Below, piece after piece: positions 4,577 through 5,967 of a stretch of 37,789 nt of DNA (position 1 is its first letter; each line of letters opens with the position of its first letter). The notes beneath the pieces are model-generated. The model was not told the DNA's origin. It made no database searches and saw only the letters and a list, made by a program, of their open reading frames with translations. The translations under genes and the position numbers were made by a program. Source of the stretch: a virus; IMG/VR virus record IMGVR_UViG_3300030103_004456, positions 1 through 37,789 of that record; one strand, 5' to 3'.

Positions 4577-4594
4577 TTGTAACAGTTGTTACAA
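4577..4594. promoter_or_regulatory. Candidate NtcA-binding box
   Basis: A perfect 18-bp dyad, TTGTAACA-GT-TGTTACAA, containing TGTA-N8-TACA. This is the consensus for NtcA, the cyanobacterial 2-oxoglutarate-responsive nitrogen regulator (GTA-N8-TAC). Its centre (4585.5) lies 20 nt upstream of a TATACA hexamer at 4613 and 31 nt upstream of TAGTAT at 4624. The first spacing fits a class II NtcA-activated promoter. The call is from sequence match; binding is inferred. Confidence 0.55.
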
Positions 4595-4600
4595 TATTAC

Positions 4601-4629
4601 TTGACTATATACTATACATGTGTTAGTAT
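4601..4629 (+). promoter_or_regulatory. Sigma70-like promoter of the regulatory island
   Basis: TTGACT at 4601-4606, a 17-nt spacer and TAGTAT at 4624-4629. The predicted RNA start would fall near 4636, just before the first aptamer-like element at 4639, so the element would be at the extreme 5' end of the mRNA. An alternative -10 (TATACA, 4613-4618) fits NtcA-type spacing instead and would start RNA near 4625. Confidence 0.55.
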
Positions 4630-4638
4630 TCTAACATA

Positions 4639-4681
4639 CGTTCAACCTCATAAGAGGTCGCAAGTAAGCCGACTCGGAACG
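4639..4681 (+). promoter_or_regulatory. Glutamine-aptamer-like RNA element 1 (glnA / Downstream-peptide type)
   Basis: P1 is CGTTC 4639-4643 paired with GAACG 4677-4681. P2 is ACCTC 4645-4649 with GAGGT 4654-4658 and an ATAA loop. The single-stranded core is CGCAAGTAAGCC followed by GACTCG. From memory, the cyanobacterial glnA and Downstream-peptide motifs share CGUUCA, a P2 hairpin, an AAGUA-containing core and GGAACG closing P1 in the same order. These motifs bind L-glutamine and also occur in marine phages. Location just after a promoter and before a short gene fits the Downstream-peptide class. Confidence 0.65.
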
Positions 4682-4684
4682 GAT

Positions 4685-4864
4685 CGTTCATCATCGTGTT
4701 ACCAATTCTACTAGCTACTACTTTTACTTGTGCTGATGCCAACTGGATTGCAGAGGGTGTTATTATAAGCGAAACTATACCTGCGGAAACAAAGGTAGAA
4801 ATTTTGGAAGTTATATTAGAAGGATGTTACGGATACGATGACGCAAAAGCCGACTGAAGGAACG
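4685..4864 (+). promoter_or_regulatory. Aptamer-like RNA element 2, split by a nested gene
   Basis: P1 is CGTTC 4685-4689 with GAACG 4860-4864. P2 is TCATCGT 4691-4697 with ACGATGA 4835-4841, extendable to 10 bp (4691-4700/4832-4841) with G-U pairs. The core after P2 reads CGCAAAAGCCGACTGAAG, closely matching element 1 (CGCAAGTAAGCCGACTCG). The P2 loop is replaced by the 53-codon gene at 4696-4857, whose GTG start is in the 5' strand of P2 and whose last codons and stop form the 3' half. A GGGT/ACCC hairpin (4864-4875) follows, before the DUF4278 ribosome binding site. This arrangement is inferred from pairing only. Confidence 0.5.
4696..4857 (+). CDS. 53-residue peptide nested in RNA element 2
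   Basis: GTG start, TGA stop. The N-terminus LPILLATTFTCADANW is hydrophobic and resembles a short signal or membrane-associating segment; the rest is acidic and ends YGYDDAKAD. From memory, many T4-like cyanophages carry a peptide of this type (hydrophobic N-terminus with TCADA, acidic C-terminus) between the same two flanking sequences. There is no Shine-Dalgarno at normal spacing; the start lies inside a predicted helix, suggesting translation is conditional. It may be the peptide of the Downstream-peptide motif. Function is unknown. Confidence 0.55.
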   Translation: MLPILLATTFTCADANWIAEGVIISETIPAETKVEILEVILEGCYGYDDAKAD

Positions 4865-4895
4865 GGTTTCCACCCTACTACTTTGGAGAAAGCCA

Positions 4896-5039
4896 ATGGC
4901 AAAAGTCACTTATCGTGGTGTCGAGTATGACACTGAAGAGTACAACGCAAAAGTTGTTGCAGACGCAACACAGCGTAACAGACACGATTTAATGTATCGT
5001 GGTCTTAAAGTTAGAAGCAAGGCATCACCTTGCAGTTAA
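4896..5039 (+). CDS. DUF4278-like small protein
   Basis: 47 residues. It contains the repeated YRG signature of the cyanobacterial DUF4278 family: VTYRGVEYDT at residues 4-13 and LMYRGLKVRS at 32-41. The GGAG at 4884-4887 is a good ribosome binding site. DUF4278 proteins are short, cyanobacteria- and cyanophage-restricted and of unknown function, so this gene supports a cyanobacterial host. It lies downstream of both aptamer-like elements and directly before a strong terminator, so it is the last gene of a short, specially regulated transcript. The peptide is moderately basic (Arg/Lys-rich second half). Confidence 0.75.
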   Translation: MAKVTYRGVEYDTEEYNAKVVADATQRNRHDLMYRGLKVRSKASPCS

Positions 5040-5044
5040 CAAAG

Positions 5045-5070
5045 AGAGGGGTTGCTACCCCTCTTTTTTT
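5045..5070 (+). terminator. Intrinsic terminator after the DUF4278 gene
   Basis: Perfect stem AGAGGGGT 5045-5052 with ACCCCTCT 5057-5064 around a TGCT loop, followed by a T-run to 5070. It closes the regulatory-island transcript. Confidence 0.9.
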
Positions 5071-5080
5071 ATGTTATAAT
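5052..5080 (+). promoter_or_regulatory. Sigma70-like promoter overlapping the terminator
   Basis: TTGCTA at 5052-5057, a 17-nt spacer and a perfect TATAAT at 5075-5080. The -35 hexamer lies in the terminator loop and the spacer contains the T-run, so the end of one transcript and the start of the next share the same bases. It would drive the replication block beginning at 5100. Confidence 0.6.
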
Positions 5081-5267: not shown

Positions 5268-5418
5268 AGCAAAGAGATTAGTTAAATTATTAGAAAGACT
5301 TCTAAAGAAAAGAGAACTTTTTGATGATGATAAATTAAATTTGATCAAAGAACAATTAAAGATTGCTAAAAATGAATTAGCAAGAATTGAAGAACAAACA
5401 TCTAAAGGATTTAAGTGA
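5251..5418 (+). CDS. Small coiled-coil hypothetical protein
   Basis: 55 residues from the ATG at 5251; an upstream in-frame ATG at 5221 would lie deep inside the preceding gene and is less likely. The whole protein is predicted helical with heptad-like Leu/Ile spacing (RLVKLLERLLKKRELF, LIKEQLKIAKNELARIEEQT) and ends TSKGFK. Similar proteins are recalled from T4-like cyanophages. It probably oligomerises; function is unknown. Its stop overlaps the GTG start of the methylase gene. Confidence 0.65.
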   Translation: MATQTRAKRLVKLLERLLKKRELFDDDKLNLIKEQLKIAKNELARIEEQTSKGFK

Positions 5419-5967
5419 GTATTATACCATTTCCTGATAAAAAATATAATATCATCTATGCTGATCCACCTTGGCAATATAATGAAAGTTGGGGTAATGG
5501 ACAGGTTGGATATGATACAATGACTAATGATGACATTTGTAAATTACCTGTTCGTGATTTGTTAGCAGAACAAGCACATCTCTATTTGTGGGTTACAAAT
5601 CCTTTTATTGCAGAGGGTTTAGAAATTTGTAAAGAATGGGGATTTGATTACAATAACTTGGGTCAAAACCTACGCAAATGGAAAACCAGAAATGGGTATG
5701 GGATATTATTTTAGAGGTTGCACTGAACATATAATTTTTGGTGTAAAAGGTAAAATGAAATGTACAAACAAAACCACTAAAAATATGTTTCAAGCAGTTA
5801 ACTCAAGTAGACATAGTGAGAAACCTCATCAAGTTAGAGAGATGATTGTTAACAGTAGTGGTGATTTACCAAGAATTGAATTATTCGCTAGACATAAATT
5901 TAAGGGTTGGGATGCTTGGGGAAACCAAATTGAAGAAAAAAACACATTAGAGGATTATTTTGTATGA
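5415..5967 (+). pseudogene. MT-A70 family adenine methyltransferase, frame disrupted
   Basis: The 5' part (GTG at 5415) encodes KYNIIYADPPWQYNES with the catalytic DPPW at residues 17-20 and HLYLWVTN. The 3' part, in the +1 frame, encodes TWVKTYANGKPEMGMGYYF, HIIFGVKGK, and PRIELFARHKFKGWDAWGN to a stop at 5967. Both halves are needed for an MT-A70 domain (SAM-dependent N6-adenine methylation). The frame changes between about 5649 and 5658; skipping one base there reads GFDY-ITWVKTY smoothly, giving about 183 residues. In the original frame, translation stops at 5714. One indel, real or an assembly error, explains it. The stop overlaps thyX (ATGA), as in an intact operon. Confidence 0.75.

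Follow-up and report, generated by a model that had tools for sequence, protein, structure and literature searches.

The window, a stretch of 37,789 nt (positions 1 to 37,789 of IMG/VR record IMGVR_UViG_3300030103_004456), is a fragment of a T4-like cyanophage, and its nearest named relatives are Prochlorococcus and Synechococcus myoviruses. The 5' and 3' halves of a glutamine aptamer are present twice at 4639-4864, and a 53-codon gene opens the P2 stem of copy 2. The parts of the locus are listed in Table 1. All strings quoted in the initial annotation of this DNA were found at the positions it had given. Farther downstream, an adenine-methyltransferase-like gene with a DPPW motif (5415-5967) seems, as judged by eye, to be broken into frames 5415-5714 and 5644-5967 by a frameshift or an assembly error.

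Table 1. Features of the glutamine-aptamer locus and the basis for each assignment
Feature	Position	Strand	Basis
GTA-N8-TAC dyad, NtcA-box-like	4579..4592	+	sequence; 12 nt before late-promoter-like element
CTATATA, late-promoter-like element	4605..4611	+	sequence; common upstream of relatives
5' hairpin directly before the aptamer	4619..4638	+	MFE fold; stem kept, letters differ in relatives
Outer P1 5' strand CGUUC	4639..4643	+	pairs with 4860-4864; P1 variants
P2a hairpin (4645-4649 with 4654-4658)	4645..4658	+	double changes at all five pairs
CGCAAGUA, outer J2/3: pocket letters CGC and E-loop 5' half (AGUA)	4659..4666	+	AGUA in 310/310 loci
P3 5' strand AGCCGACU	4667..4674	+	pairs with 4848-4855; U4674-A4848 covaries
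Inner P1 hairpin GAACG-GAU-CGUUC, copy 1 3' strand (4677-4681) with copy 2 5' strand (4685-4689)	4677..4689	+	P1 covariation
P2b 5' strand, takes in GTG start	4691..4700	+	10 bp with 4832-4841; covariation
Nested gene, phrog_504, 53 codons, GTG start, TGA stop at 4855-4857	4696..4857	+	profile match, dN/dS
P2b 3' strand, doubling as nested-gene codons	4832..4841	+	covariation
CGCAAA, inner J2/3 (CGC pocket letters)	4842..4847	+	sequence comparison
P3 3' strand AGCCGACU	4848..4855	+	covariation with 4667-4674
GAAG, E-loop 3' half; with U4855 it gives the stop codon UGA	4856..4859	+	GAA/AAA in copy 2 only, 309/310 loci
Outer P1 3' strand GAACG	4860..4864	+	P1 variants
Downstream gene, 47 aa, DUF4278	4896..5039	+	PF14105, 26 bits, cut-off 25.3
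Intrinsic-terminator-like hairpin and T run closing the unit	5043..5071	+	sequence, by eye

Copy 1 (4637-4685) was matched by RF01739 (glutamine-I) at 35.9 bits against a gathering score of 35, which bears out the reading of its letters as a glutamine aptamer. The split copy 2 of the window gave no Rfam match as it stands because about 150 nt, the 53-codon frame, part its halves, so that the covariance-model check proposed in the initial annotation came out for the first copy and not for the second. The unsplit copy 2 of phage P-TIM68 is matched by RF01739 at 35.4 bits, and that of S-PM2, with a core identical to copy 2 of the window, scored 33.3 bits. The annotation had named two classes, glnA and Downstream-peptide; the former stood for the outer of the two junctions described below, but the latter did not, since RF01704 (glutamine-II) scored 28.6, below its gathering score of 33, and the Rfam alignment marks non-standard pairs at its second helix, where the glutamine-II pseudoknot helix should lie. 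P-HM2, P-SSM4, and S-TIM4 gave no glutamine match at all in a standard Rfam search. In P-SSM4, a manA RNA (RF01745, 184 bits) was found just upstream of the element, at 317-502 of locus L008.

Pattern scans of IMG/VR and of named phages yielded 390 distinct elements on contigs of cyanophages and of IMG/VR. About 340 of these carry a gene in the second P2, and a homologous gene is found in the first P2 of about 50. The scans were anchored on conserved letters, and the conservation of those letters is therefore no evidence. One pair per genome was found by pattern search in twelve phages; a linker-pattern scan of genomes returned chance matches only. Insert sizes are bimodal in both stems (second P2, 10-29 nt or at least 130 nt; first P2, 10-49 nt or at least 190 nt with two exceptions), and every combination of split and unsplit states of the two stems was seen. 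When only copy 1 and the short-class linker served as anchors, the scan gave 98 split and 8 unsplit second P2 stems. On a weak tree of 176 loci, the nested state changes often, mostly by losses in copy 2 (24/28) and mostly by gains in copy 1 (15/19). A large phage group (loci L458-L577) has CAACG/CGUUG as its inner P1, and many of its members carry further gene types in P2.

Pairing of P2 across the nested gene was scored on 255 loci found without any pairing condition; a first table had used loci chosen by pairing, and that condition was dropped in the later one. Pairs 1-4 of the split P2 were standard in 98-99% of the loci and pair 5 in 91%, compared with 33-61% standard cells in slid registers. 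Among distinct P2 strand combinations, the paired fraction was 0.87, against 0.66 ± 0.02 when the strands were re-dealt (maximum of 0.74 in 5000), and the column pairs that scored highest in a background-corrected G-test fall in the P2 register. In P2a, double changes were found at all five pairs, with tree co-changes amounting to 0.67-1.0 of the rarer column. Both P2 stems thus covary as the P2 hairpin of glutamine-I would, the gene notwithstanding, and the compensatory changes anticipated for the split P2 are present among relatives. The pattern is not due to chance, given 390 distinct elements and split-P2 pairing far above that of slid registers.

The initial annotation had described two self-contained aptamers in tandem; this part did not hold, as P1 and P3 each form between the copies according to covariation. 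In the glutamine-I crystal construct, the E-loop halves AAGUAAG and CUGAAG flank P3, and the outer J2/3 letters of the window are the same as in that construct (PMC5393176). The AGUA half was always in copy 1 and the GAA half always in copy 2 (309/310 loci; AGUA was present in copy 1 in 310/310), and pairing between the two cores was tested for this reason. The inter-copy pair U4674-A4848 covaries (T-A in 143, A-T in 39, and G-C in 3, with two exceptions), its column pair reaching G=202 where the next best reached 21. On a tree built from the downstream gene and the upstream region, which rests on short alignments, this pair co-changed on 27 of the 30/31 branches with a change, compared with 10 or fewer co-changes with any other column. 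Core lengths also shift jointly, with 187 loci at (17,17), 118 at (14,14), and 5 others, a change that amounts to the loss of three base pairs. The 5-bp P3 of the short class is standard in 590/590 cells; two positions of the long-class P3 are usually non-standard (C.A in 185/187 loci and A.C in 154/187).

P1 was examined with a scan that required a changed copy-1 3' strand and left its partner free. The inner P1 was changed from C-G to G-C (CAACG/CGUUG) in 84 loci, with the 5' strand of copy 1 itself mostly still CGUUC, and outer P1 was changed from C-G to U-A (copy 1 CGUUU, copy 2 AAACG) in 10 loci. Both P1 fifth pairs are kept in 374/375 loci when the copies are interlocked and in 290/375 when they are taken in tandem; for the 86 loci with variant P1 letters, the interlocked arrangement fits 85 and the tandem arrangement 1. 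Most of this variation may stem from few ancestral events. The P1 helix of glutamine-I is found as outer P1 between the copies in the same 374/375 loci, and a P1 within each copy is broken in 85/86 variant loci. Taken whole, the interlocked structure had 96% paired cells over 22 distinct rows, and its covariation of 0.333 compared with 0.112 for shuffled and at most 0.063 for slid alignments. The interlocked fold had the lower energy in 38/39 unsplit elements, and outer P1 and the inner hairpin were found unprompted by RNAalifold; P3 was often missed by unconstrained single-sequence folds.

An arrangement of two independent tandem aptamers, with a gene opening P2 of the second one or of both, would agree with the separate Rfam scores of unsplit copies and with the tandem glnA RNAs described in the accessible text of Weinberg 2010 (PMC2864571). 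It breaks one or both of the P1 fifth pairs in 85/375 loci, however, and leaves the inter-copy covariation, the joint length change, and the complementary E-loop halves unexplained; it is rejected on P1 and P3 covariation and can be given hardly any credence. Two tandem aptamers kissing through their cores were likewise rejected, since that arrangement needs a P1 within each copy.

Covariation shows outer P1, the inner P1 hairpin, and P3 as helices that each join the two copies. The outer three-way junction (outer P1, P2a, P3) is on this evidence a canonical glutamine-I aptamer with a complete E-loop, and the combination of AGUA/GAA E-loop and P3 is found in this junction only, its halves coming from different copies. 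The inner junction (inner P1, P2b, P3) is the same junction circularly permuted and enclosed in the outer P3 arm, with P1 closed by the linker and an opening at the shared P3. It retains the pocket-lining letters CGUUC, CGC, and AACGG and has no E-loop. The P2 apical loops are, as far as sequence comparison goes, hosting sites, with a two-cysteine gene in P2b (phrog_504) and, in some phages, a homologue in P2a (phrog_6471). We consider it probable that the element is a single interlocked double glutamine riboswitch and that its nested gene is off in the liganded state. A ligand other than glutamine, bound with altered specificity in this phage group, is very unlikely: J2/3 reads CGC in place of the CGG of the glutamine-I consensus, but CGC also occurs in glutamine-II, a glutamine binder (PMC6698751), the pocket letters are intact, and a DUF4278 gene follows nearly all elements.

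The gene placed inside P2 of copy 2 by the initial annotation proved to be real and conserved. It matches phrog_504 (E=3.8e-9), as do 41/42 relatives, and the copy-1 nested genes, which lie in P2a of about 50 relatives, are phrog_6471; the annotation was therefore right that copy 2 is split by a gene, and in those relatives copy 1 is split as well. Substitutions by codon position were 362/165/617 in copy-2 genes and 115/71/271 in copy-1 genes, and dN/dS was 0.25 for copy-2 genes (75 independent pairs of relatives) and 0.16 for copy-1 genes. By these measures, the nested frames are genes under purifying selection. Two cysteines are invariant in both families (C12 and C44 in phrog_504), and the families match each other by hhalign with a probability of 97 and E of 3e-10 when all sequences are used, and with 85 and 7e-6 for smaller sets, a relationship that suggests that a gene-in-stem unit was duplicated. 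The nested proteins were modelled with three helices at moderate confidence (pLDDT of 78 and 81), and a fold search with these models gave nothing that reached an E of 0.001.

The GTG start was correctly placed within P2 of copy 2, and the last codons and stop of the nested gene do form the aptamer core: the start codon lies at least partly within P2 in 231/259 loci, and 245/259 copy-2 frames end exactly at the core stop codon. The same kind of core is read in different frames by the two nested genes (...DAKAD-stop and ...GRK-stop). Cores are identical in kind with and without a nested gene, and so are set by the RNA. In the short class, GGAG was found in the inner P1 loop of 130/185 elements with the gene and 0/9 without it, and in the long class of 3/153 and 0/43, respectively; occurring only in gene-bearing elements, it fits a Shine-Dalgarno role. 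The idea that the nested mRNA is selected for a folding that closes P2 was considered and rejected as not specific, with synonymous-shuffle z values of -2.2 to -2.4 for nested genes, -2.05 for DUF4278 controls, and -0.7 for chunks of long genes. DUF4278 mRNAs of relatives are likewise more stably folded than their synonymous shuffles (z about -2).

The nested gene could instead be a passenger, accommodated by a permissive stem loop and unconnected with any regulation by the RNA. P2 loops tolerate length change, unsplit relatives with the same cores exist, and the folding bias of the nested mRNA, being shared by DUF4278, is unspecific. Such a passenger would not be expected to come with insert sizes that fall into two widely separated classes, unsplit and split, to keep its start overlapping P2 and its stop within the core almost throughout the copy-2 genes, to be accompanied by an inner-loop GGAG seen only alongside the gene, or to have homologues in the same place in both junctions, and we regard this explanation as unlikely.

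In the interlocked model, each junction would bind L-glutamine, and the shared P3 would couple the two. The ribosome-binding region of the nested gene would then consist of the inner P1 hairpin and P2b. The gene is predicted to be off in the folded, liganded RNA because the inner P1 hairpin precedes it, its start lies in P2b, and its final codons and its stop are part of P3 and the E-loop. Conversely, a ribosome on the nested gene would unfold the sensor; since the start lies in P2 and the UGA stop of the window is built from the final base of P3 plus the E-loop, translation or termination on the gene would presumably be incompatible with a folded sensor. Glutamine should therefore switch the nested gene off. 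Known glutamine switches turn genes on (PMC6698751), and DUF4278, which is probably on with glutamine in the same way, may respond oppositely to the nested gene, which would put the production of the two small proteins in opposite nitrogen states. No conserved expression platform was found for DUF4278, and inspection by eye gave nothing conserved as an alternative pairing of its ribosome-binding site. The full version of the model, with two glutamine pockets that have a helix in common, are coupled cooperatively, and hold genes in their own stems, with translation and sensing physically exclusive, and with two proteins made in opposite nitrogen states, has about an even chance of being correct.

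The inner junction might serve as a scaffold only. A less likely reading is that the RNA is interlocked, that glutamine is bound by the outer junction alone, and that the inner one is a clamp hiding the ribosome-binding site of the nested gene. The full E-loop is confined to the outer junction, as that reading would have it, but the inner CGC and AACGG letters, needless for a plain clamp, are kept throughout, and glutamine-II binds its ligand without such an E-loop (PMC6698751).

Upstream, the GTA-N8-TAC dyad was found in 163/299 distinct regions, compared with 0.9% in shuffles, and an element of the CTATATA/CTAAATA/TATAAATA type in 267/299; the two are separated by 12 nt in 99 regions and 11 nt in 32 (range, 10-12 nt). 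The placement of the dyad differs from the usual geometry of NtcA-activated promoters, and the box can be called only NtcA-box-like. In most of the 293 distinct upstream regions compared, the aptamer is directly preceded by a perfect dyad of 6-8 bp, whose left arm comes in 90 versions; few such dyads were seen in shuffles. This hairpin could be a 5'-end stabilizer or a promoter feature. Its loop is often TATAAT-like. Downstream, a YRG-type (DUF4278) ORF follows 245/247 split and 49/49 unsplit elements. Marine picocyanobacteria lack PirA, a small protein that interacts with PII (PMC8092223). The occurrence of the element in many marine cyanophages, beside DUF4278 and often behind GTA-N8-TAC, points to phage sensing of the host nitrogen state.

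In the cyanophage literature, the glutamine riboswitch is listed among phage RNAs (PMC9964418), whereas riboswitches go unmentioned in the main cyanophage comparison of 2010 (PMC3037559). One glnA element of 99 nt is annotated in the S-CREM1 record. A search confined to the open literature turned up neither interlocked glutamine aptamers nor an aptamer with a gene in one of its stems; the novelty of the interlocked, gene-hosting form is thus not certain. Split copies are missed by standard Rfam searches, and other gene-holding aptamers may be overlooked in the same way. Riboswitches are normally described as leaders before genes; here, the aptamer contains coding sequence, and letters of the sensor core double as codons (read in two different frames, as DAKAD-stop or GRK-stop).

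Among known systems, the element resembles glutamine-I (RF01739) in its outer junction, with P1, P2, the E-loop AAGUAAG...CUGAAG, P3, and the pocket letters, but its P3 encloses a second junction instead of being a simple hairpin, and its P2 can hold a gene. With glutamine-II (RF01704), it shares the CGUUCA and CGCA letters and the position before short ORFs, but it lies below the cut-off (28.6 of 33) and is without the pseudoknot-type second helix. Glutamine-II acted as an ON switch in a GFP fusion, and its pocket consists of C1, G2, G18, C19, C39, G40, and G41 (PMC6698751). Weinberg 2010 (PMC2864571) described glnA RNAs in tandem as well as Downstream-peptide RNAs ahead of short ORFs, and the tandem glnA RNAs are alike in having two adjoining glutamine-type units; in the accessible text of that report, they are a plain tandem without interlocking or a nested gene. 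Two pseudo-symmetric ligand pockets in one RNA are also known from the ydaO c-di-AMP riboswitch, from a title cited in PMC5393176. For the element described here, two junctions on one shared helix would offer a simple way of building a cooperative sensor. The ydaO riboswitch has another ligand and another fold, and it is not known to hold a gene. ORF-bearing group I and group II introns are likewise structured RNAs with a protein gene in a peripheral loop, but they are catalytic and mobile and encode endonucleases or maturases, whereas the present element is a sensor RNA with tiny two-cysteine proteins.
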